Below, in pieces: positions 21,001 through 41,680 of a DNA stretch of 64,000 nt. The notes below the pieces were generated by a model. It was not told the origin of the DNA and did no database searches. It saw nothing but the letters and a program-made list of their open reading frames with translations. Both the position numbers and the translations under genes were made by a program. How positions within the stretch are numbered: the stretch's first letter is position 1; each line of letters opens with the position of its first letter. This DNA is from Bacteroidaceae bacterium (GTDB lineage Bacteria; Bacteroidota; Bacteroidia; Bacteroidales; Bacteroidaceae): positions 248,001 to 312,000 of the forward strand of contig JAFRTL010000016.1 of assembly GCA_017427065.1 (NCBI GenBank), written 5' to 3'.

Positions 21001-22791
21001 GTGAACGAAGATCAAGAACCGAAAATAAATAAAACGGCGTTTGAGTCGCTGGAGACTTTGTACCGTAGGTGGAAAGATGGCACTTTCATGGAAATCATTG
21101 ATGACTGGAAGTGGATCTTTGGGTATAGCCTGAGGTATAAGTGGATTATTGCTTATTCGCTTTTCCTAGGTATATTGAGTACTACGCTGGGACTGGTGGG
21201 TAGTGTGATCAATAAGTACCTGATTGATATCATTACGGGGTATCAGACGGATAAGTTGTGGATACTGATTACCTTGGGTATCGTCAATCTGGTTTTGGGA
21301 CTGGTCATCAGTCCGATTATGGGACGTATCAACCTGAAAATCAGTATTTACCTGAACAATGATATCCAGTCTGACTTGTTCGACAAGATCATTGACTCTG
21401 ACTGGGGGGAACTGAATAAATATACGCATGGTGATGTATTGAATCGATTCACGGGGGATGCGGGGTCGGTGAGTGGTAATGCCATCGGGTGGCTGCCTTC
21501 TATCGTGATTTCGATTTACCAGTTCATCGCGACGTTCCTCCTGATCATGCATTACAATACGGTGATGGCGCTCCTCGCTTTTGCCAGCGCGCCATTTACC
21601 TTGATTGCTGCGAAATTCATCATCAAGAAACAGCGTGAATATGCGAAGAAGGTGCGTGAGATGAGTTCGCAGGTAATGACCTTCCAAGTGGAGACGTTCT
21701 ACAATCTGGATACCATCAAGTCGTTTGGCATCGCCGATCAGTACAGTCGCAAGCTGAAGTGGTGGCAACGGGCGTTTAAGGATATCCAGTTGAAATACAA
21801 CATGTTTACCATCAAGACGGGACTATATATGTCATCGGTGGGTACGTTGGTATCGGCTACAGCCTTCGGTTATTGTTTGTGGCTGTTGTGGACGCACCAG
21901 ATCACCTATGGTACCATGATGCTGTTCTTGCAGCAGCGTGGGGCGTTGTCGGGAGCGTTCAGCAATCTGATCGGTCTGGTGCCCAACTTCCTAAATAGTT
22001 CGGTGTCTGCCCACCGTATCCGTGAGATCGTGCAGCTGCCGAAGGAGGTCCATATCCCGAAGAGCTCGGAATTGGATCAGTACATCGAACAGGGTTTCAG
22101 TGTGAAGTTGAACGATGTGAACTTTGCTTATGTGGAGGATAAACGCGTGATCACCAACTCTGATTTCGAGGCAAATCCTGGGGAGATCGTAGCACTGGTT
22201 GGTCCTTCGGGTGAGGGTAAGACGACCATGCTACGCCTGATTTTAGGTTTGATACATCCTGAAACAGGCGAGGCAGAGATAGAGACGCGCTTTGGGGTAT
22301 CTGTGCCGATGAATGCAGATACACGTCACTTGTTCTCTTACGTGCCACAGGGTAACTCCATCCTTTCAGGCACCATCGCAGAGAATATGCGCATGGCGAA
22401 GGAGGATGCTACCGATGAGGAGATTGTGGAAGCGCTGAAGGTGGCGTGTGCCTGGGATTTCGTTCAAAAGACGCCAGAGGGTATCAATACGAAGATAGGG
22501 GAGCGTGGACGTGGATTCTCCGAGGGACAGGCACAACGCATCGCCATTGCCCGTGCCGTACTTCGTGATGCGCCTATCCTTCTGCTGGATGAAGCTACTT
22601 CTGCCCTGGATGTCACGACTGAGCGTATGGTGCTGCGTAATATCATCCAGCAGCATCCCAACAAGACGTGCATCGTGACCACGCACCGTCCTACGGTACT
22701 GAATATGTGCAAGCGTGTGTATCGTGTGATGGAGACGAAGGTGACGGAGCTGAGTGAGGAAGAGAGTAGCAAAATGGCGATAGACTTCTAA
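21001..22791 (+). CDS. ABC half-transporter (permease-ATPase fusion)
   Basis: A 596-residue type IV exporter-like protein: six membrane helices in the first ~330 residues, then the ATPase with Walker A GPSGEGKT at 401-408, signature FSEGQ near 506, Walker B ILLLDEA near 526 and the switch histidine in TTHRP. It starts with GTG directly after a repeat element; a later ATG at 21088 is possible but would remove the conserved elbow region. By position after a PglC-like transferase it could flip a lipid-linked glycan, as PglK does; export of a peptide with the neighbouring S26-like protein is the alternative. Confidence 0.88.
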   Translation: MNEDQEPKINKTAFESLETLYRRWKDGTFMEIIDDWKWIFGYSLRYKWIIAYSLFLGILSTTLGLVGSVINKYLIDIITGYQTDKLWILITLGIVNLVLGLVISPIMGRINLKISIYLNNDIQSDLFDKIIDSDWGELNKYTHGDVLNRFTGDAGSVSGNAIGWLPSIVISIYQFIATFLLIMHYNTVMALLAFASAPFTLIAAKFIIKKQREYAKKVREMSSQVMTFQVETFYNLDTIKSFGIADQYSRKLKWWQRAFKDIQLKYNMFTIKTGLYMSSVGTLVSATAFGYCLWLLWTHQITYGTMMLFLQQRGALSGAFSNLIGLVPNFLNSSVSAHRIREIVQLPKEVHIPKSSELDQYIEQGFSVKLNDVNFAYVEDKRVITNSDFEANPGEIVALVGPSGEGKTTMLRLILGLIHPETGEAEIETRFGVSVPMNADTRHLFSYVPQGNSILSGTIAENMRMAKEDATDEEIVEALKVACAWDFVQKTPEGINTKIGERGRGFSEGQAQRIAIARAVLRDAPILLLDEATSALDVTTERMVLRNIIQQHPNKTCIVTTHRPTVLNMCKRVYRVMETKVTELSEEESSKMAIDF

Positions 22792-22792
22792 G

Positions 22793-22894
22793 AAATTGAG
22801 AATTGAGGATTGAGGATTGAGAATTCACAATTGACAATTCACAATTACCATCCGGATGGCAAATTCTCAATTCTCAATTTTCAATTCTCAATTA
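22793..22894. repeat. Heptamer hairpin element with CCATCCGGATGG core
   Basis: ATTGAGA/ATTGAGG units and ATTCACA/ATTGACA variants (22795-22846), core CCATCCGGATGG at 22848-22859, then TCTCAAT/TTTCAAT units (22864-22894). Confidence 0.83.
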
Positions 22895-22901
22895 TTTGTG
22901 C

Positions 22902-22909
22902 TATTTTTG
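22902..22909 (+). promoter_or_regulatory. Putative -7 box for purU
   Basis: TATTTTTG matches TAnnTTTG, 31 bases before the ATG. No clean TTTG lies 19-20 bases upstream, where the repeat arm ends. Confidence 0.45.
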
Positions 22910-22940
22910 CAGCGTTTTTTAATTATTTTGAAAGTTTAGA

Positions 22941-23798
22941 ATGAAAAATACTGCCATTTTGTTGCTTCACTGCCCCGACAGACCGGGCATTATCTCGGAT
23001 GTGACGAATTTTATCACGGTGAATCAGGGGAATATCATTTATCTGGACCAGTACGTGGATCGCGTGGAGAATATCTTCTTTATGCGCATTGAGTGGGAAC
23101 TGGAGAAGTTTACCATCCCACGTGAGAAGATAGAGGATTTCTTTGGGACGCTCTATGGCCAGAAGTATGACATGCATTTCCGCCTGTATTTCTCGGATCA
23201 GAAGCCTAGGATGGCGATTTTTGTTTCTAAGATGTCACACTGTCTGTACGACCTGTTGGCACGTTTCAGTGCTGGGGAGTGGGATGTGGAGCTGCCACTG
23301 ATTATCAGCAACCATGAGGATATGCGTCCTGTGGCGGAAATGTTCGGTATTCCATATTATTGTCTGCCTATCACCAAGGAGAACAAGGCGGAACAGGAGG
23401 CGAAGGAGTTCCAACTGCTGCAGGAGCATGGGGTGACGTTTATCGTGTTGGCGCGTTATATGCAGGTGATCTCTGAAGAGATGATAGAGCATTACCGCCA
23501 TAAGATCATCAACATCCATCACTCGTTCCTCCCTGCCTTTATCGGTGCGAAGCCTTACCATGCTGCCTTCGAGCGTGGCGTGAAGATCATCGGTGCCACA
23601 GCACACTACATCACCATGGAACTGGATGCTGGTCCGATCATCGAGCAGGATGTGGTGCGCATCACGCATAAGGATACCATTGAGACATTGGTCAATAAGG
23701 GTAAGGACCTCGAAAAGATTGTACTCTCGCGTGCCGTGCAAAAGCATATTGAGCGCAAGATTCTGACGTATAAGAATAAGACGGTGATATTTAATTAA
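22941..23798 (+). CDS. purU: Formyltetrahydrofolate deformylase
   Basis: Hydrolyses 10-formyl-tetrahydrofolate to formate and tetrahydrofolate, which feeds purine synthesis and balances C1 units. 285 residues, the normal length. The N-terminal ACT domain covers about 1-80 (AILLLHCPDRPGIISDVTNF). The formyltransferase domain has LARYMQVIS, then NIHHSFLPAF with the catalytic His, and the Asp in LDAGPIIEQD. It is a housekeeping gene lodged between the ABC transporter and GtrA, each side separated by repeat elements, so it is probably transcribed from its own promoter. Confidence 0.95.
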   Translation: MKNTAILLLHCPDRPGIISDVTNFITVNQGNIIYLDQYVDRVENIFFMRIEWELEKFTIPREKIEDFFGTLYGQKYDMHFRLYFSDQKPRMAIFVSKMSHCLYDLLARFSAGEWDVELPLIISNHEDMRPVAEMFGIPYYCLPITKENKAEQEAKEFQLLQEHGVTFIVLARYMQVISEEMIEHYRHKIINIHHSFLPAFIGAKPYHAAFERGVKIIGATAHYITMELDAGPIIEQDVVRITHKDTIETLVNKGKDLEKIVLSRAVQKHIERKILTYKNKTVIFN

Positions 23799-23800
23799 CA

Positions 23801-23910
23801 TTACGGCTTGCGCCGTGATTCTCGGCTGCACCTCAGCAAATTAAAGCAAGCTTTATTTGCGTTCGGTTTGCACGAGAATTGAACATTGAGAATTGAACAT
23901 TGAACATTAA
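23801..23910. repeat. Composite repeat between purU and gtrA-like gene
   Basis: ACGGCTTGCGCCGT palindrome, CTCAGCAAATTAAAGCAAGC core with TTTGCACGAG, then ATTGAAC/ATTGAGA units (23876-23909). Only one orientation of heptamers is present. The last unit supplies the TTG used as start by the next gene. Confidence 0.75.
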
Positions 23911-24280
23911 TAGGGGTATTATATTAGAGGCATTGCGTTTCGGGATAGTTGGTTTGATAGCTTTTGTGATTCACTATGCTATCTATTGGGTATTGCTGCA
24001 TTGGATTAATGTGAATGTGGCCTACACGATAGGGTATGCATTGAGCTTCGTCTGCAATTTCTTTTTGACATCCTATTTTACGTTTAAGTCTAATGCTACA
24101 TTAAAGCGTGGGATGGGTTTTTGCTCGGCGCATCTGACGAATTATCTGTTATCCATTGGGCTCCTTAATCTCTTTTTATGGTTGGGTGTGAAGGCAGAAT
24201 GGGCGCCTATTCCAGTGCTTATGATTGCGGCACCAGTTAATTTTCTATTGATTCGTTTGGTTTTCAAGAAGATGAAATGA
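23900..24280 (+). CDS. GtrA family membrane protein
   Basis: A 126-residue protein with four membrane helices (about 10-30, 38-60, 72-95, 100-120) and the family segments FGIVGLIAFVIHY and GYALSFVCNFFLTSYFTFK. GtrA proteins are thought to move polyprenyl-phosphate-linked sugars across the membrane. No ATG is available before the first helix; the first usable start is a TTG at 23900 that lies inside an ATTGAAC repeat unit. The end overlaps the next gene by four bases, so both are coupled. Confidence 0.87.
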   Translation: MNINRGIILEALRFGIVGLIAFVIHYAIYWVLLHWINVNVAYTIGYALSFVCNFFLTSYFTFKSNATLKRGMGFCSAHLTNYLLSIGLLNLFLWLGVKAEWAPIPVLMIAAPVNFLLIRLVFKKMK

Positions 24281-34162: not shown

Positions 34163-35344
34163 TTAAATATTCATTTTTTTGTAAATAGCCTCTGCTAATT
34201 GCTGTAAGGCTTTGTTTAAAACGGACTTAGGACAACCGACATTCAGACGCAGGAAACCTGCACCTTCCTTCCCAAACATAGTACCATCATTAAGCGCCAG
34301 ATGGGCCTCTTCCAAGACGACACGTGTCAGCATCTCCTGACTCCATCCTAGTTTTCGGAAGTCAAGGAAGATGAGGTAGGAGGCTTGCGGACGAACCATG
34401 GTCACCATGGGGAGATGTTCTTTCAAGAATGTTTCTGTGAAGTCGATGTTCTCTTGAATGTAAGCCTTGAGCTGGAGTAGCCATTCTTCTCCTTCACTAT
34501 AAGCAGCAGCACAAGTGGTATAGGAGAAGACATTGCCCATTTCCAGTTCGCTGGCTTCCATGTAGGTATGGAACTGTTCCCACATCGCAGGGTTCTGAAT
34601 GATGCAGATGGAGGTTGAAATACCTGGCATATTGAATGTTTTGCTAGGTGCCATGAAGGTGATGGTGTGCTCACGGGTCCAAAAATTGACTGAAGCAAAT
34701 GGAATGTGCTTATACGGTGGAAGAGTGAGGTCGCCATGGATTTCGTCCGACAATACCAGTACCTTGTTTCGCTCACAGATGTCGGCGATGTGTAAGAGTT
34801 CCTCACGTGTCCATACACGACCACCAGGATTGTGAGGATTGCAGAGGATAAGCACCTTACAATCTTTTATATCACGCTCCAATTGCTCGAAGTCCACATG
34901 AATCTCATCCTGCTCGTCGATAATCAACGGAGAATAGACCACTTTGCGGCGATTCTTCTCGGTCACCAGAAAGAACGGATGATAGACAGGAGGCATCACC
35001 AGCACACGGTCACCAACTTCTGTGAAACATTGCAAGGCGAAAGCCAATCCACGTACGATGCCGGGCATGTGCATCATCTCCCAGGCATTCACCTCCCAAT
35101 TATGATGCTTCTGCTGCCAGCAGATGAAGGCGTAGTACCATTTATCGCTTGGAATGGTGTATCCCATCACGCCACGATCCAGCCGTTCCTTGATGGCATT
35201 TATCACACAGGGAGGTGTGCGGAAATCCATATCGGCTACCCACATGGAAAGTAAGTCCTCGCGACCGAAAAACTCTTTCAGTCCATCCCATTTCACAGAA
35301 TCTGTACCTCGTCTGTCCAGGACTTCATCGAAATCGTATATCAT
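34163..35344 (-). CDS. PLP-dependent aminotransferase, MalY/PatB cystathionine beta-lyase type
   Basis: A 393-residue fold-type I PLP enzyme. K235 in APSKTFN is the Schiff-base lysine, D200 in LSDEIHGDL binds the pyridine ring, and CNPHNPGGRVW near 168-178 is the family signature. MalY/PatB-type enzymes cleave cystathionine or other cysteine conjugates, releasing thiols. The start codon and N-terminus (YDFDEVLDRRGTDSVKWD) fit the family exactly. Only 78 bases separate it from the downstream DUF4332 gene, which however has its own promoter. Confidence 0.9.
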   Translation of the reverse strand: MIYDFDEVLDRRGTDSVKWDGLKEFFGREDLLSMWVADMDFRTPPCVINAIKERLDRGVMGYTIPSDKWYYAFICWQQKHHNWEVNAWEMMHMPGIVRGLAFALQCFTEVGDRVLVMPPVYHPFFLVTEKNRRKVVYSPLIIDEQDEIHVDFEQLERDIKDCKVLILCNPHNPGGRVWTREELLHIADICERNKVLVLSDEIHGDLTLPPYKHIPFASVNFWTREHTITFMAPSKTFNMPGISTSICIIQNPAMWEQFHTYMEASELEMGNVFSYTTCAAAYSEGEEWLLQLKAYIQENIDFTETFLKEHLPMVTMVRPQASYLIFLDFRKLGWSQEMLTRVVLEEAHLALNDGTMFGKEGAGFLRLNVGCPKSVLNKALQQLAEAIYKKMNI

Positions 35345-35469: not shown

Positions 35470-36180
35470 ATGAAATTTGGTCTTATAGCCGCCGGATTGG
35501 GTTCTCGTCTGGTATCTGAAGGTGTGGAAGCCCCCAAACCTTTGGTAAAGGTAGGGGGAGAGCCTTTGTTGGGCAGACTTCTACGTATCTTCCTCGACAA
35601 TGGGGCGGAAAGCATTTCGCTGATTACCAATGAGGAGATGACGGAAGTACACGAGTTCCTTAAAGCTCAGGAATTGCCGGTTCCTCTGAATATTGTCATC
35701 AAATCTACGCCCAGTTCTTTCCATAGTTTCTACGAATTGAAACCCTATCTGGAAGGCAGTAAGTTCTGTTTGACAACTGTGGATCCTATCTTTCGTGAGC
35801 AGGAGTTTGCCGACTATATTCGGGCCTTTGCTACGAATACAACGGACGATGCGCTGATGGGTGTAACCAGCTATATCGATGACGAGAAGCCCCTTTACGT
35901 GAAGGTAGAGGAGCCCAGCATGCGCATCACGGGATATGCGAATCAGGCCTATGAGGGCTGTAAGTACGTCTCTGGAGGCATTTATTGCATGAACGAGCGG
36001 GCTTTGGCACTCCTTCCAGAAGCGATGGAGAAGGGTGTGAGTAGGATGCGAGGATTCCAGCAGTATCTGGTGGATGCCGGATTGGCTGTGCGGGCTTTCA
36101 ATTTCAGTAAGGTGATAGACATCGACCATGCGGAGGATATCCGTAAGGCGGAAGCATTTATGAAGGATACAAAGAGATGA
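35470..36180 (+). CDS. Sugar- or polyol-phosphate nucleotidyltransferase
   Basis: A 236-residue NTP transferase. GLIAAGLGSRL at 4-14 is the nucleotide-binding loop, APKPLVKVGGEPLL at about 23-36 the second signature, and TTVDPIF near 98-104 the metal-binding acid. The closest functional analogues by layout are inositol-1-phosphate or choline-phosphate cytidylyltransferases of the NTP_transf_3 type, which make a CDP-alcohol. That reading is supported by a CDP-alcohol phosphotransferase two genes downstream. First gene of a six-gene run with 4-base overlaps or very short gaps. The substrate and the nucleotide (CTP is expected) are inferred. Confidence 0.82.
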   Translation: MKFGLIAAGLGSRLVSEGVEAPKPLVKVGGEPLLGRLLRIFLDNGAESISLITNEEMTEVHEFLKAQELPVPLNIVIKSTPSSFHSFYELKPYLEGSKFCLTTVDPIFREQEFADYIRAFATNTTDDALMGVTSYIDDEKPLYVKVEEPSMRITGYANQAYEGCKYVSGGIYCMNERALALLPEAMEKGVSRMRGFQQYLVDAGLAVRAFNFSKVIDIDHAEDIRKAEAFMKDTKR

Positions 36181-37022
36181 ACGATAAACGGACATTTGCT
36201 GCCGTGCAGCGACATACACTTTATTCTCCGAATCATATCGGGAATGATGCTGCCATTTTCAATGCGGTGGCAGAGCGTTTGAAGCATGCCGGACATGAGG
36301 TACATTTTTATACTGAGCAGGAATTTCTCACTCGGGAGTTGACAGAGCATTATATCTTCAACATGATTCGCAGCAAGGAAGCGGTGAAGCGTCTGCAGCG
36401 TTACGAAGAAGACGGATGTATGGCCGTGAACTCAGGGTTTGGGATAGAGAATTGTACACGTGAAAAAATGACACGCTTGTTGCTCGATGCAGGGGTTCCT
36501 CATCCACGTAGTCTTTTTTTGCTAGTTAGCGAAAAAAATTTTCATAACTTACCAATGCCTTGTTGGGTAAAAAGGGCCGACTTCCATGCCATCCATAAAG
36601 AGGACGTGAGTTATGTGCGCAATGAGGAAGAATTTCGAAGCTTATTGTCGGAATATGCTTTAAGAGAAATCAGTCGGGTAGTGGTAAACGAGCACTTGGA
36701 GGGCGACCTTATCAAGTTCTATGGTGTGAATGGCACGGACTTTTTCTATTGGTTCTATCCGTTTGAGATGAAGCATTCCAAATTCGGTTTGGAGAAGATC
36801 AACGGGGAGCCTACGGGCATCTCTTTTAATGTGGAGACACTGCAAAAGATCTGCAACCAGGCGGCCTCTGTGCTGAAGGTCGATGTGTATGGAGGCGATG
36901 CCATCGTGGCAGCAGACGGCAGTATGCGCATCATTGATTTTAATGATTGGCCAAGTTTTGCACCTTGTCGAGAGGAAGCAGCAGATGCCATCAGTGAACT
37001 AATCTTGAAGAAAGCTGTATAA
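36177..37022 (+). CDS. ATP-grasp fold protein
   Basis: A 281-residue protein with the layout of an ATP-grasp ligase or kinase: an N-terminal Rossmann-like part (FNAVAERLKHAGHEVHFYT), a central domain with PCWVKRADFHAIHKEDV near 122-138, VVNEHLEGDLIKFYGV near 164-179, and the metal-binding IDFNDWPSF near 257-265. It starts within the stop of the nucleotidyltransferase gene (ATGA). An ATP-grasp enzyme would add an amino acid, acid or phosphate to another molecule; which one is not visible. The neighbour set suggests modification of the activated alcohol or its precursor. Confidence 0.72.
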   Translation: MNDKRTFAAVQRHTLYSPNHIGNDAAIFNAVAERLKHAGHEVHFYTEQEFLTRELTEHYIFNMIRSKEAVKRLQRYEEDGCMAVNSGFGIENCTREKMTRLLLDAGVPHPRSLFLLVSEKNFHNLPMPCWVKRADFHAIHKEDVSYVRNEEEFRSLLSEYALREISRVVVNEHLEGDLIKFYGVNGTDFFYWFYPFEMKHSKFGLEKINGEPTGISFNVETLQKICNQAASVLKVDVYGGDAIVAADGSMRIIDFNDWPSFAPCREEAADAISELILKKAV

Positions 37023-37026
37023 AGAT

Positions 37027-37935
37027 ATGGAACAGAAGGACATTAACATACAGGCCTCGCTAAAATCAGCGGATACCGAAGAGTGGATCGACTTGGTCTT
37101 CTATCGGCCGTTGGGCTATCGTTGGGCGTTGTTTTTCAATAAGTTGGGTGTGACTCCCAATGCCATTACCATCGCTTCCATCTTTTTAGGAGTGGCAGCT
37201 GGCATCCTGTTTTATTTCGACAACCTTTGGGTGAATGTCATTGGTATGTTGCTGTTGGTTTGGGCCAATCAGTACGACAGTGCCGACGGACAGTTGGCTC
37301 GTCTCACCGGACAGAAATCGGAATTGGGTCGTATCCTCGATGGCATGTCGGGCGATTGTTGGTTCATCGCCATCTACTTTGCCATCGTGTGCAGGCTTTA
37401 TCCCACATGGGGCTTCTGGATTGTCCTCTTGGCTGCAGCGGCAGGATTCTGTCACAGTAAGCAGGCAGCCATGGCCGATTATTACCGCAATATCCATCTG
37501 TTCTTTTTGAAAGGAAAGCAGGGAAGTGAGCATGACCGCTCGGATCAACAGGAGGAACTCTATCGTCAGCTTTCTTGGAAGCACGATTTCATCCGTAAAC
37601 TCTTCCAATGGTTCTATAAGGATTATTGCAGAAAACAAGAGCAGCTCTCACCAAAGTTCCAACGTTTCTTCGACAAGTATTTGGAAGTTTATGGTGGTGC
37701 AGAAGCCCCACAGGAACTGCGTGATAAGTTTCGTGTAGGGAGTCTGCCGTTGATGAAATACACGAACATCTTGTCGTTCAACACCCGTGTGATTGCGCTG
37801 TTTATCTCGCTGTTCATACGGATGCCTTGGTTGTATTTCGTGTTTGAACTCACCGTACTGAATGCACTCTTGGTCTATATGATTTATAAGCATGAAAAGC
37901 ATTGCGAGCGAATGCTGGGAGAAATTGACAATTGA
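37027..37935 (+). CDS. CDP-alcohol phosphotransferase family membrane enzyme
   Basis: A 302-residue membrane protein with about six helices. The CDP-alcohol motif is at 84-110: D84-xx-D87-G88-xx-A91-R92-x8-G101-xxx-D105, then D110. In the canonical motif the last, catalytic Asp comes four residues after the third; here that position (109) is Gly and Asp is one place later. The enzyme would move a phospho-alcohol from a CDP-alcohol to an acceptor alcohol or lipid. A large charged insertion (about 155-215) sits between helices. The C-terminus EIDN and TGA stop are read from ATTGACA heptamers. Confidence 0.85.
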   Translation: MEQKDINIQASLKSADTEEWIDLVFYRPLGYRWALFFNKLGVTPNAITIASIFLGVAAGILFYFDNLWVNVIGMLLLVWANQYDSADGQLARLTGQKSELGRILDGMSGDCWFIAIYFAIVCRLYPTWGFWIVLLAAAAGFCHSKQAAMADYYRNIHLFFLKGKQGSEHDRSDQQEELYRQLSWKHDFIRKLFQWFYKDYCRKQEQLSPKFQRFFDKYLEVYGGAEAPQELRDKFRVGSLPLMKYTNILSFNTRVIALFISLFIRMPWLYFVFELTVLNALLVYMIYKHEKHCERMLGEIDN

Positions 37936-37954
37936 CAATTGACAATTCACAATT
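37922..37954. repeat. ATTGACA heptamer array
   Basis: ATTGACA, ATTGACA, ATTGACA, ATTCACA, ATT in tandem, overlapping the stop of the CDP-alcohol gene and ending one base before the next ATG. Confidence 0.85.
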
Positions 37955-37955
37955 A

Positions 37956-39662
37956 ATGAAGAGTAAGTATCGTAACATATTTTTGGCGTTTGGCGTGGTG
38001 GCAGTGGTCATCATGCTGCTAACTATGAATATGAGTTACGAGGAGCTTTGGAGTAATCTGAAGCGTGCAGGGTATTATCTGCCACTAATTATCTTATTAT
38101 GGTTGGTGGTGTATGTCATTAATACCTGTTCTTGGTACGTTATCTTACATAGTTCTGGACGCGTAACTATCCCATTCTGGCGACTCTATAAGTATTCCGT
38201 TTCTGGATTTGCACTCAACTATGTCACGCCCGTCGGACTGATGGGTGGGGAGCCTTACCGTATCATGGAACTGACACCCTATGTGGGTGTAGAGCGAGCG
38301 ACCTCCTCGGTGATTCTCTATGTGATGATGCACATTTTCAGTCACTTCTGCTTCTGGATGAGTTCGGTACTGATCTACGTGTTCTTCTATCCTGTTAATT
38401 GGAGTATGGGCATCTTGATGGGATTTATTACACTCTTCTGTCTGACGTTAGGAACGCTCTTTATCAAAGGTTACCGACATGGTATGGCAGTGGCGTGTAT
38501 GAATCTGGCCAGTAAGATTCCCTTCCTGAAGAAATATGCCCTTGCTTTTGCGGAGAAGAACCGGGCGAAGTTGGAGAACATCGACAAGCAGATTGCCTTG
38601 GTTCATAAGCAGGACAAGCGTTCGTTCTATGGATCGCTGTTCTTGGAATACCTGGCACGTGTGGTGAGTTGCGGAGAAGTCTGGCTCATTCTTAATGTGT
38701 TGACTACCAATGTGAGTTTCGTGGACTGTATTCTGATTCTGGCATTCTCTTCTCTGATGGCCAATCTGCTGTTCTTCATGCCGATGCAACTTGGTGGTCG
38801 TGAAGGCGGGTTTGCCTTGGCAGTGAACGGTATTTCCGTGGCAGGAGCCTACGGTGTTTATGCGGCTTTGATTACCCGTATACGTGAGATGGTATGGATT
38901 ATCATCGGCTTGGCACTGATGAAGATAGGAAACAAAAACGTGAAAGATATGGTGAGTGATATTAAGGTGAAGGCGTTGGCCTTCGATTTCGGGGGTACGC
39001 TGGATTCTCCGTTCTTACATTGGGCGCAGGTCTATATTAAGATTTATAATGAAAAGTTGGGTATTCCACTTACTCGAGAGACTTTTTGGGACTCCTATGT
39101 CTTTGCCGAGCGTGAGATGGAGCGTCTGAATCCGGTGAAAGCAACGGATACCCTGCGCGATGTGCAGAACTATAAAACCCGCTTCCAGTTCGACGACCTT
39201 ATCCGTCGTGGAGTGGTGGAAGATACGGAGTACAACCGCACCACTTTGCCTGCTGAGGCTGCCCGATTGGTGACGGAGTTCTCAACTGATTATGTCAGAC
39301 AAGCAAAGCCAGTTTTAGAGAAGCTGAAAGATAAATATACCCTCTTTGTGGTATCCAACTATTATGGAAATCTGAAGTCGGTCTTGCAGAGCATGGGTGT
39401 GGCAGACCTTTTCCATTCCATCACCGACTCAACGATAGCTGGTATGAGAAAACCTGATCCTGCGCTTTGGAAGTTGGCCATCGAGCAAGAAGGTTTCCAA
39501 CCGGAAGAAGTCATCGTGGTGGGAGATTCACAAAGGAATGATGTCAATCCTGCTCTTTCGTTGGGATGTCATGTCATCAAATGTTGTCCTGACGAAACGG
39601 CTGTAGTTCCTGGTATTACGTGTATCATGCAACTTAGTGAACTGGAAGTCTTGCTGTTATAA
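37956..39662 (+). CDS. UPF0104/LPG-synthase-like flippase fused to a HAD phosphatase
   Basis: A 568-residue fusion. Residues 1 to about 325 are a membrane domain of eight or so helices of the UPF0104/LPG_synthase_TM type, with MGGEPYR near 100 and the MPMQLGGREGGFAL signature near 282-295. Residues 335-568 are a HAD hydrolase: FDFGGTLDS (motif I, where the second Asp of the usual DxD is Gly), VVSNYYGN (II), RKPDP (III lysine) and VGDSQRND (IV). The fusion joins a possible lipid flippase with a phosphatase, which fits a pathway that makes a phosphorylated lipid headgroup, moves it and removes phosphate. Start 37956 follows the repeat array. Confidence 0.85.
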   Translation: MKSKYRNIFLAFGVVAVVIMLLTMNMSYEELWSNLKRAGYYLPLIILLWLVVYVINTCSWYVILHSSGRVTIPFWRLYKYSVSGFALNYVTPVGLMGGEPYRIMELTPYVGVERATSSVILYVMMHIFSHFCFWMSSVLIYVFFYPVNWSMGILMGFITLFCLTLGTLFIKGYRHGMAVACMNLASKIPFLKKYALAFAEKNRAKLENIDKQIALVHKQDKRSFYGSLFLEYLARVVSCGEVWLILNVLTTNVSFVDCILILAFSSLMANLLFFMPMQLGGREGGFALAVNGISVAGAYGVYAALITRIREMVWIIIGLALMKIGNKNVKDMVSDIKVKALAFDFGGTLDSPFLHWAQVYIKIYNEKLGIPLTRETFWDSYVFAEREMERLNPVKATDTLRDVQNYKTRFQFDDLIRRGVVEDTEYNRTTLPAEAARLVTEFSTDYVRQAKPVLEKLKDKYTLFVVSNYYGNLKSVLQSMGVADLFHSITDSTIAGMRKPDPALWKLAIEQEGFQPEEVIVVGDSQRNDVNPALSLGCHVIKCCPDETAVVPGITCIMQLSELEVLLL

Positions 39663-39671
39663 TGTTAGCTT

Positions 39672-40982
39672 ATGAAACTGAGAAGTAGTGTACTGATTGC
39701 TTTGTTGGGAGTGGCATTTATTGTCGCTCTGCAATGCTTGTGGCTGTACAATACTTACCAGTTGCTGAAAGACGACTTGGAGAAAGAACTGACCGACCTG
39801 GTGGAGGAATCGTTGCTGAAAGAGCGCGATTTGCGTTTGGATATCTTTTATGCTGATTCTACCTCCACAGCATTGGAGTTCGATGGAAGGGCTGATGAAC
39901 TGACGAGATTCAACGAGGCCTTAAATGAAGAAGGAATTCCAGTTTCCTTAGTGCAGGTGGATTCTATTGCCAAGGAGATGCTGCTTGAGCGTGATATCAC
40001 CAACGACATCACCATCGACTTGGTGGAAGCGGCCACAGGAAGGGTGATGGCCACGAGCAATCCTCGTTTTACGTTGCATTTTGGTGGATTTGTAGCTTCG
40101 CAAGCGGTGGCAGTGAACTATGAGCGTACGCATGGTATCCGTATGTTGGTGGACAATCCATATACCATTATCTTTGGACGGATGATTGCGCTCATCTTAG
40201 CATCGTTGGTATTGCTGACGCTTATCATTTGGAGTATTCTCCAACAGATACATTTTATCCGCAAGCAGGACAAGATTGCTACCTTGCGCCAGGATTTCAC
40301 CTATGCAATGGTACATGATATGAAGACTCCGTTAAGCAGCATCATTATGAGTCTGCGGAGCCTACGGAGTGGGAAATTGGAGGGAAAGGAAGCCCTGAAG
40401 GATAAGTATATGGGAATTGCCGAGGATGAGGCTTCGCAGCTTTTGGCACTGACCAATAAGATTCTGACACTTTCCCGTTTGGAGAATCACCGGTTGGAAT
40501 TACATATAGATAAGGTGGAACTGCGGCCGTTGGTGGACGATCTGATTCAACGTTTTACGGTGAAAGCAGGGAAGGATGTGTCATTCGATACGGAGTTGAA
40601 AATGCCTTCCGTCATGGCTGATCCCCAATATCTGAGTGAAGCTCTTAGTAATCTCATCGATAATGCCATCAAGTATTCTGGGGAGAAGGTTCGGATAGAG
40701 ATCGCTTCGCATGAGACCTTCGGGCATGTGATTGTCAGTGTGAAAGACGATGGACTGGGTATCTCTCCTGAAGATTTAAAAGTGATCTTCGAGAAGTTTG
40801 AACGCGGAGAAGCCACTCAGCGCAGCAAGATAGGAGGAGCCTCAGGCTTCGGACTGGGACTGAACCTTGTCAGTCGGATACTCGAAGCCCATGGTGGTAA
40901 GGTGGATGTGGACAGTGTGAAAGGGGAATACAGTAAATTCTCTCTTTGGTTTCCCAAGGAGGCTAAGACAGAAGAGGTATGA
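39672..40982 (+). CDS. Sensor histidine kinase
   Basis: A 436-residue membrane kinase with two helices (about 7-25 and 172-192) that frame a periplasmic sensor domain of about 145 residues, then HisKA with H215 in VHDMKTPLSS, and the ATPase domain with NLIDNAIKYS (N box), DDGLGIS (G1) and GFGLGLNLV (G2). It lies nine bases after the flippase-HAD gene and overlaps its regulator by four bases, so the pair probably controls or senses the product of this operon. Layout is like RprX of Bacteroides. Confidence 0.9.
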   Translation: MKLRSSVLIALLGVAFIVALQCLWLYNTYQLLKDDLEKELTDLVEESLLKERDLRLDIFYADSTSTALEFDGRADELTRFNEALNEEGIPVSLVQVDSIAKEMLLERDITNDITIDLVEAATGRVMATSNPRFTLHFGGFVASQAVAVNYERTHGIRMLVDNPYTIIFGRMIALILASLVLLTLIIWSILQQIHFIRKQDKIATLRQDFTYAMVHDMKTPLSSIIMSLRSLRSGKLEGKEALKDKYMGIAEDEASQLLALTNKILTLSRLENHRLELHIDKVELRPLVDDLIQRFTVKAGKDVSFDTELKMPSVMADPQYLSEALSNLIDNAIKYSGEKVRIEIASHETFGHVIVSVKDDGLGISPEDLKVIFEKFERGEATQRSKIGGASGFGLGLNLVSRILEAHGGKVDVDSVKGEYSKFSLWFPKEAKTEEV

Positions 40983-41680
40983 ACAACATTAAATTGCTTT
41001 TGGTAGAGGATGATGCCAACCTGAGCTATATCATCAGCAGTAGCTTACAGGAGTTGATAGGAGGTTATGATATAGTGACTGCTACCAATGGGGCTGAGGG
41101 GCTGAAGGCCTGGAAGGACTATCATCCCGATGTCATTATTGCAGATATTGACATGCCTGTAATGAATGGTTTCGAGATGGTGGAGAAAATCCGTGAGACC
41201 GACGGAGACACATTGATCTTTTTTACTTCGGCACTGACTTCGCCCGAGGATGTGAGCCATGGTTATCGTCTGGGTGTAAACAACTACTTGAAGAAACCGT
41301 TCGTCCCCGAGGAACTGGATGCCAGTATCAAGGCTCTTCTGAAACTCCAAAGAGGAGAGCGGGCAAATAATGAGACGGGACAGTTGCACATAGGAAGCTT
41401 TATCTTTGATTCCCGCACTTGCGCATTGACTTCTACGGATGGGAAGGAAGAACATCTCACGGAAACAGAAGGAAAACTCCTGCGCCTGTTGGCAGAGAAT
41501 CTGGGAGAGATGGTGAGTCGTGATGCCATCATGTACCGCATCTGGGGAAATACCGACTACTATGTCTCCCGTAGCTTGGATGTGTTTGTAAGGAAACTTC
41601 GGATGCGCCTTTCTGCTGATAAACGGGTAGAATTGACTACTGTCAGGGGACAAGGACTGAAACTAGAAGTTAAAAATTGA
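40979..41680 (+). CDS. OmpR-family response regulator
   Basis: A 233-residue regulator: receiver domain with D11-D12, phosphoacceptor D56 in ADIDMP, and Lys near 106 in KKPF; C-terminal winged helix (about 135-230) with the SRSLDVFVRKLRMRL recognition helix. Partner of the kinase just upstream. The last residues and the TGA stop (VKN) run into ATTGAGA heptamers. Confidence 0.92.
   Translation: MNNIKLLLVEDDANLSYIISSSLQELIGGYDIVTATNGAEGLKAWKDYHPDVIIADIDMPVMNGFEMVEKIRETDGDTLIFFTSALTSPEDVSHGYRLGVNNYLKKPFVPEELDASIKALLKLQRGERANNETGQLHIGSFIFDSRTCALTSTDGKEEHLTETEGKLLRLLAENLGEMVSRDAIMYRIWGNTDYYVSRSLDVFVRKLRMRLSADKRVELTTVRGQGLKLEVKN

Follow-up and report, generated by a model that had tools for sequence, protein, structure and literature searches.

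What is made by a compact gene set that joins a nucleotidyltransferase, an ATP-grasp enzyme, a CDP-alcohol phosphotransferase and a fusion of a putative flippase to a HAD phosphatase, and what part could the ATP-grasp enzyme play in it? These genes lie in a stretch of 64,000 nt from a Bacteroidaceae bacterium (GCA_017427065.1, contig JAFRTL010000016.1, positions 248,001-312,000), referred to here as the window, whose source genome, G000, is 83% complete (handles beginning with G denote genomes and those beginning with L denote loci). The original prediction, made from the window alone, had described six tightly spaced genes that would activate a phosphorylated alcohol with CTP and transfer it to an acceptor in the membrane, with a sensor kinase attached. 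The list of open reading frames (ORFs) and domain scans recovered all six, densely packed on the + strand at 35470-41680, and the domain calls hold, by Pfam for the nucleotidyltransferase, transferase, fusion, histidine kinase and response regulator, and by rimK_fam and a structural model for the ATP-grasp enzyme. Our analysis indicates that the first four genes probably form a CDP-inositol-type inositol-lipid operon in which the head group is the target of the ATP-grasp enzyme, possibly as a kinase. That the route runs through CDP-inositol to a lipid product, as judged from protein families and gene context, we consider highly probable.

Gene order was compared in 80 loci, the best-scoring 80 of 565 relatives matching the ATP-grasp profile; this is a near-relative sample, in which genes were detected by tblastn with the window proteins and many loci end at contig ends. 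Because the nucleotidyltransferase, ATP-grasp and transferase genes are consecutive on one strand in 69 of the 80, the association of the three is beyond chance. The nucleotidyltransferase gene lies no more than 300 bases upstream of the ATP-grasp gene in 75 loci, and the ATP-grasp gene no more than 300 bases from the transferase gene in 74. Conservation of the whole six-gene order had been proposed as a check on the original prediction, and it is this three-gene core that was kept, whereas the response regulator was not (see below). A HAD domain was detected in 70 loci and an LPG_synthase_TM domain in nine, the latter also being present in 13 of 15 cluster-bearing stretches taken from family genomes, at least one of which overlaps the 80 loci.

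The genes also occur as fusions. Nucleotidyltransferase and ATP-grasp form a single ORF in L124-L129, L150, L151 and L088, which belong to several genera and include relatives with fusions of 519-574 aa, and in L130 these two and the transferase make up one ORF of 828 aa, whose nucleotidyltransferase and transferase parts are also recognized by Pfam. The LPG_synthase_TM-HAD fusion of the window recurs in L124, L125, L149, L152, L153 and L156, with separate genes in other loci; a transferase-HAD fusion is present in L070 and has also been reported for P. veroralis (PMC9246714). If neighbouring steps tend to fuse, the ATP-grasp enzyme would belong at the activation end of the path and the HAD domain at its lipid end. 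In L088 (4525-7034), the fusion of nucleotidyltransferase and ATP-grasp measures 530 aa and is followed by a YegS-type lipid kinase.

Across 121 genomes of the family, searched at E ≤ 0.001 for the ATP-grasp enzyme and E ≤ 1e-20 for the nucleotidyltransferase, ATP-grasp was found in 76 genomes and the nucleotidyltransferase in the identical 76, so that the "added ATP-grasp" of the original prediction is not only present but is the interesting part of the set. The two genes are separated in nine of the 76, being on different contigs in G014, G042, G063, G081, G098 and G113, all of genus g14, and more than 5 kb apart in G033, G108 and G078. Since these nine genomes keep both genes unlinked, the perfect pairing is more than linkage, though the independent separations are few. 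Being retained as strictly as the nucleotidyltransferase (76/76), the ATP-grasp enzyme consistently accompanies the route and is unlikely to be a mere accessory. It follows the nucleotidyltransferase, not the transferase, across genomes, which suggests that it acts before lipid transfer.

The window-type transferase was present in 83 of the 121 genomes at more than 120 bits, with 17 more having weak matches of 20-27 bits only. By comparison, the BT1523-type PIP synthase (NF052561) was found in 14 genomes (242-384 bits, four above cut-off), and the phosphoinositol dihydroceramide (PI-DHC) synthase (NF052609) was found in the same 14 (341-548 bits, seven above cut-off), none of which carries the ATP-grasp gene. 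Two weak NF052609 matches of 22 bits, in G068 and G102, do fall in ATP-grasp genomes; in the 83% complete G000, the only NF052561 match was the window transferase gene itself, at 23.7 bits, and there was no NF052609 match. The two systems meet in a Dysgonomonas record (L066:8271-13567), where the nucleotidyltransferase and ATP-grasp genes adjoin a B. thetaiotaomicron-type inositol lipid set consisting of a PgpA-like protein (96 bits), PIPSynBT1523 (379 bits) and PI-DHC synthase (524 bits); judged by its gene content, this locus ties the pair to inositol lipids. L082, also from Dysgonomonas, appears to be a similar hybrid of both routes, judged by its similar ORFs.

Eight genomes have the transferase family but lack the ATP-grasp gene, and none of the eight has a match to inositol-phosphate synthase (MIPS). 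In the five that were examined (G010, G041, G048, G069 and G096), the transferase adjoins a cytidylyltransferase that is IspD-like or of the ribitol-phosphate type; the stretches fetched from these five yielded no HAD, although the contig of G010 ends soon after the pair. The ATP-grasp enzyme and the neighbouring HAD domain are thus jointly gone where another enzyme makes the CDP-alcohol, as would be expected if the first added a phosphate and the second took it off. Loci L133, L134, L159, L160 and L161 carry such a parallel transferase-cytidylyltransferase set, with ATP-grasp and HAD not found nearby, and in L161 a second CDP-alcohol transferase-like gene follows it.

The families of the two core enzymes agree with a CDP-activated polyol phosphate route resembling a split IPCT/DIPPS, as had been proposed. 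For the nucleotidyltransferase, the best NCBIfam match was NF041135 (IPCT/DIPPS), which models a bifunctional Thermococcales protein and scored 59 bits, compared with 33 for the next model and a cut-off of 580; its profile, A4, matched PDB 4jd0 and 2xme, the latter a CTP-inositol-1-phosphate cytidylyltransferase. For the transferase, the best NCBIfam match was archaetidylinositol phosphate synthase (46 of 180 bits), and the best PDB match of profile A3 was AF2299 (4o6m; E 5e-10). The signature of this enzyme class, D1xxD2GxxAR...GxxxD3xxxD4, has been described as comprising eight absolutely conserved residues, of which D4 is the likely catalytic base, its change to Asn nearly abolishing activity in one PIP synthase (PMC4634129). 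The window transferase keeps D1, D2, G, A, R, G and D3, but Gly takes the place of D4 in 74 of 75 family motif matches across the 80 loci, and Ser does so in the remaining one, a register visible in alignments with AF2299 and CEPT1. The two other CDP-alcohol transferases of G000 retain the Asp. Three motif matches in the loci do have D4 but come from different proteins, that of L066 being of the BT1523 type and those of L082 and L104 being judged by eye from the motif. The residue following the D4 position is Asp in 65 of the 75 matches (Asp110 in the window protein) and may substitute as the base, though it is not universal. In G000, contig C14, L002 (511-1938, - strand) contains a 475-aa ORF in which a PF01066 domain with D4 kept is in frame with a domain of the PF13354 beta-lactamase enzyme family (127 bits); this may be a single protein or two genes sharing one frame.

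What, then, is the alcohol? The original prediction noted that the window has no inositol-phosphate synthase and called for a genome search; the sole MIPS found in the genome (PF07994, 344 bits) is on a different contig, C21, at 22793-24046, within 22757-24082. Among the 80 loci, MIPS was detected in 48 and lay within 5 kb of the ATP-grasp gene in 42, and it is directly upstream of the nucleotidyltransferase gene in the three genomes with the most similar ATP-grasp enzymes (G107, G032 and G059, as in L036). Because MIPS is present in the genome and lies this close to the ATP-grasp gene in 42 loci, inositol is the likely alcohol. The predicted CDP-polyol route is thereby sharpened to inositol as the likely polyol. 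MIPS was found in 82 of the 121 family genomes, 64 of which hold both it and the ATP-grasp gene. Two types of MIPS could be distinguished, the C21 copy being 78-88% identical to one, whose records are labelled mostly Muribaculaceae or Bacteroidales, and 56-66% identical to the other, which includes all nine LPG_synthase_TM-bearing Bacteroides-type loci; since the two types differ in this way, exchange of the MIPS gene may have taken place separately from that of the cluster. Contig C21 was also considered as contamination, and this was rejected on evidence of composition, together with C21-type MIPS genes adjoining the cluster in relatives (L120, L121, L127 and L128): the tetranucleotide distance of its first 32 kb was 0.087 to the second half of the window and 0.178 to the first, the two halves being 0.162 apart.

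The assignment of the ATP-grasp gene itself required several methods. It has no Pfam ATP-grasp match at E ≤ 0.1, and the window protein matches rimK_fam only weakly, with 27 bits against a cut-off of 143, although all 79 aligned members match this model. K180, D241, D254 and N256 are invariant in the 79, and the AlphaFold2 model (pLDDT 90.5), compared by Foldseek, had ATP-grasp enzymes as all of its 50 best PDB matches among 627 at E ≤ 0.001. Taken together, the weak NCBIfam matches, the invariant D241, D254 and N256 and the matches of the model confirm, at the level of predicted structure, that the gene encodes an ATP-grasp enzyme. As to its substrate, the best PDB match of family profile A2 was inositol 1,3,4-trisphosphate 5/6-kinase (ITPK), with a whole-sequence E of 1.7e-4 (0.019 with profile A1), and five of the seven PDB matches of A2 at E ≤ 10 were ITPKs. 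In addition, D-x-N-x-[FW]-P-[SG]-[FY], the metal motif of the family, agrees with the three ITPK chains aligned, whereas PsnB and ArgX have E-x-N. The family profile thus hints at ITPK, while the fold search and family models favour ligases, and we assign the enzyme only tentatively as an inositol-phosphate kinase, an identity that is plausible but short of probable. According to a review, inositol-3-phosphate can directly serve as a substrate of ITPK1 (PMC8024741).

In the pathway that we propose, MIPS, encoded elsewhere in the genome, would make inositol-3-phosphate; the ATP-grasp enzyme would modify the head group prior to, or along with, its activation by CTP, the most likely reaction being phosphorylation of inositol phosphate to an inositol bisphosphate; the nucleotidyltransferase would couple the inositol (bis)phosphate to CTP, giving CDP-inositol (phosphate); the CDP-alcohol transferase would shift the head group onto a lipid alcohol, either diacylglycerol or dihydroceramide; and the HAD domain would strip off the surplus phosphate, the lipid being flipped by the LPG_synthase_TM domain. 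Such a scheme would give every conserved gene a role, fit each fusion and yield the usual D-1 linkage, whereas the lipid would be linked through D-3 if the MIPS product were activated as such. The HAD domain is fused either to LPG_synthase_TM (in the loci of six relatives) or to the transferase (L070), that is, to the lipid end of the path; that it reverses the phosphorylation by the ATP-grasp enzyme is possible, albeit doubtful. In its fully specified form, in which an ITPK-type kinase makes the bisphosphate, the nucleotidyltransferase CDP-inositol phosphate and the D4-less transferase a dihydroceramide or diacylglycerol lipid, from which a membrane-tethered HAD domain removes the 3-phosphate, the scheme must be considered unlikely to be right in every step. 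If true, D-1-linked phosphatidyl- or ceramide-inositol would be made by a route centred on a bacterial soluble inositol-phosphate kinase.

Several observations weigh against this interpretation. The ITPK match of profile A2 had an i-E of 0.21 for its best single stretch, and the other ITPK matches had E values of about 1. The top Foldseek ranks were D-Ala-D-Ala ligases, PsnB and ArgX, with ITPK not among the best 50 of 627; a single-sequence PDB search returned PsnB (E 9e-4), with ITPKs missing at E ≤ 1; and NCBIfam placed all 79 members nearest RimK-type ligases. PF05770, the ITPK family, was absent from 25 of the 26 families that the 79 members matched at E ≤ 1, and when 61 genomes were searched with it, the 10 weak matches all lay away from the ATP-grasp genes. 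For the archaeal and Rhodothermus-type CDP-inositol pathways, no comparable requirement for an ATP-grasp enzyme is known. As for gene content, 10 of the 80 loci yielded no HAD, some of them limited by contig ends, and three of these 10 are loci of termite Dysgonamonadaceae in which other genes take its place; L066, L082 and L098 have the nucleotidyltransferase and ATP-grasp genes with no window-type transferase within reach; and 12 of the 76 cluster genomes have no detected MIPS, six of them being 93-99% complete. Finally, the Fisher values for co-occurrence are tiny, yet the genomes are related and independence is overstated.

The ligases heading these searches raise the alternative that the ATP-grasp enzyme is a RimK-like ligase, of the carboxylate-amine or ester kind, in an otherwise similar CDP-inositol lipid route, where it would attach an amino acid or another acyl moiety to the inositol head. 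The rimK_fam matches of all 79 members, weak as they are, the Foldseek ranking and the match of the single sequence to the ligase PsnB are all in its favour; however, none of the conserved cluster genes found (nucleotidyltransferase, transferase, HAD and MIPS) supplies a carboxylate, the D-x-N motif resembles that of the ITPK chains aligned rather than the E-x-N of PsnB and ArgX, and the enzyme keeps company with the nucleotidyltransferase rather than the transferase, suggesting action before transfer. We therefore regard a ligase as improbable, without being negligible. A different kinase, phosphorylating free inositol with ATP to supply inositol phosphate to the nucleotidyltransferase as a salvage reaction, would explain the cluster genomes without detected MIPS and would be consistent with the very minor uptake of exogenous inositol into B. 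thetaiotaomicron lipids (PMC9246714) and with the absence of ATP-grasp from the 14 genomes having the B. thetaiotaomicron-type module, the B. thetaiotaomicron genome itself not being among those searched. However, because 64 MIPS-bearing genomes retain the ATP-grasp enzyme, it is more than a substitute for MIPS, and we assign salvage a low probability.

Heaver et al. proposed that the product of MIPS is converted to CDP-inositol by the nucleotidyltransferase and on to phosphoinositol diacylglycerol (PI-DAG) by the transferase, and that the HAD enzyme turns PI-DAG into PI-DHC (PMC9246714), which would leave the ATP-grasp enzyme as an accessory. This scheme is a published prediction, and B. vulgatus and P. 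veroralis are reported to make PI-DHC without homologues of BT_1522/23/25 (PMC9246714). The strict retention of the ATP-grasp enzyme noted above makes an accessory role unlikely. Exchange of lipid backbones is not a known activity of HAD hydrolases, and we give this scheme little credence. Lastly, a head group made from another polyol phosphate, although sugar nucleotidyltransferases outscore 4jd0 and 2xme against profile A4, MIPS went undetected in 12 of the 76 genomes and a related transferase stands beside an IspD-like enzyme, is very improbable in view of the adjacency of MIPS, the lack of overlap with the B. thetaiotaomicron inositol module and the PI-DHC found in species with the alternative cluster (PMC9246714). 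The reading that we prefer is that of an inositol-lipid operon with an ATP-grasp enzyme for the head group.

The sensor kinase had been taken as dedicated to the pathway, but this was not borne out: the response regulator was found in none of the 80 loci, none of the 15 stretches and only one of 11 further stretches, that of the close relative G143. There, the histidine kinase and response regulator adjoin the cluster, the kinase copy is 97% identical and the neighbourhood from a DUF4332 gene to a GH2 gene is 90-99% identical to the window, whereas the next best kinase among 99 genomes of the genus is 41% identical. Because the response regulator is linked beyond G000 only in G143, the pair is probably a local neighbour outside the conserved pathway. 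The best NCBIfam match of the response regulator was RprY (169.5 of 370 bits). Distant histidine kinases (25-30% identity) occur near six of the 80 loci. In the Bacteroides-type loci L035, L039, L057 and L118 (11890-14571), the gene ending just upstream of MIPS encodes a distant sensor kinase that shares 26-27% identity with that of the window.

The features of the locus are listed in Table 1. In the fusion protein, the LPG_synthase_TM domain (PF03706, 97.5 bits), a BT_1521-type putative flippase, occupies residues 16-322, and the HAD phosphatase domain (PF00702/PF13419, 55 bits) begins at about residue 346. The fusion gene probably starts at ATG 37956 rather than at TTG 37932, because the open frame in G143 begins just before MKSKYRN; with this start, the gap following the transferase gene would be 20 bases. 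Beside the operon is a divergent gene for a PatB-family C-S lyase (34163-35344; TIGR04350 above cut-off). Promoter-like sites (13, against a shuffle mean of 9.9) and terminator-like sites (6, against 5.1) were near the shuffle means. A defence system was considered and rejected, the nucleotidyltransferase and ATP-grasp proteins having no PADLOC match at E ≤ 0.001.

Table 1. Genes and motifs of the putative inositol-lipid locus and the adjacent two-component system (window coordinates)
Feature	Position	Strand	Basis and remarks
Nucleotidyltransferase, inositol-phosphate cytidylyltransferase-like	35470..36180	+	PF12804/PF00483
ATP-grasp enzyme, proposed inositol-phosphate kinase	36177..37022	+	4-base overlap with nucleotidyltransferase gene; rimK_fam 27 bits
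D-x-N metal motif of ATP-grasp enzyme (DFN of IIDFNDWPSF)	36936..36944	+	D254, N256 invariant (profile A2)
CDP-alcohol phosphotransferase, proposed to move inositol head group to lipid alcohol	37027..37935	+	PF01066, 45.8 bits; 4-base gap after ATP-grasp gene
CDP-alcohol phosphotransferase signature without D4: D84xxD87GxxAR...GxxxD105xxxG109	37276..37353	+	Motif matching and alignments
LPG_synthase_TM-HAD fusion	37932..39662	+	PF03706 and PF00702/PF13419; likely start 37956
Sensor histidine kinase, adjacent	39672..40982	+	PF00512, PF02518; 9-base gap after fusion gene
OmpR-type response regulator, adjacent	40979..41680	+	PF00072, PF00486; 4-base overlap with histidine kinase gene

Four known systems invite comparison. 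The IPCT-DIPP synthase route of archaea and hyperthermophiles (NF041135, 2xme and AF2299) shares with the window the nucleotidyltransferase and transferase families and activation by CTP, but the window genes are split, scoring 59 and 24 bits against the 580-bit cut-off, the transferase is without D4, and ATP-grasp, HAD and LPG_synthase_TM are added. ITPK1, itself of the ATP-grasp fold, shares with the window enzyme the best PDB profile match and the D-x-N-x-[FW]-P-[SG]-[FY] motif, whereas the window enzyme has no ITPK Pfam match and the fold search prefers ligases. Soluble inositol-phosphate kinases have been described for eukaryotes and archaea (PMC8024741); if the ATP-grasp enzyme is a kinase, they would also be widespread in gut bacteria. 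The B. thetaiotaomicron cluster BT_1521-1526, encoding PIP synthase, a PgpA-type phosphatase and phosphoinositol dihydroceramide synthase, has in common with the window the presumed final products and the LPG_synthase_TM gene, the copies in genomes of this type (G002 and G091) being 70% and 74% identical to that of the window; it runs through a phosphatidylinositol phosphate-diacylglycerol (PIP-DAG) intermediate (PMC9246714), and the two sets did not overlap in the 121 genomes. In B. thetaiotaomicron, loss of inositol lipids alters capsule expression, resistance to antimicrobial peptides and fitness in mice (PMC9246714).

The closest counterpart is the alternative inositol lipid cluster of B. 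vulgatus and Prevotella (BVU_RS13095, RS13105 and RS13115), a prediction of Heaver et al. (2022; PMC9246714). The window has the nucleotidyltransferase, CDP-alcohol transferase and HAD in common with this cluster. That cluster is described as usually being near MIPS, which is sometimes elsewhere, as in P. copri, and as having LPG-synthase homologues in its vicinity (PMC9246714). In the present case, by contrast, HAD and LPG_synthase_TM form one protein, the set is followed by a two-component pair and MIPS is encoded on a separate contig. The word "grasp" has 0 occurrences in the text of that paper, figures and supplements lying outside this count, and in a literature search covering neither preprints nor most subscription papers, no title or abstract opening reported a later test of the pathway. 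The cluster is therefore already known as a prediction, to which the present analysis adds the ATP-grasp enzyme as a constant partner and the loss of D4, the latter making the mechanism of the transferase directly testable, while the strict pairing of nucleotidyltransferase and ATP-grasp suggests that the published three-enzyme scheme is one step short.

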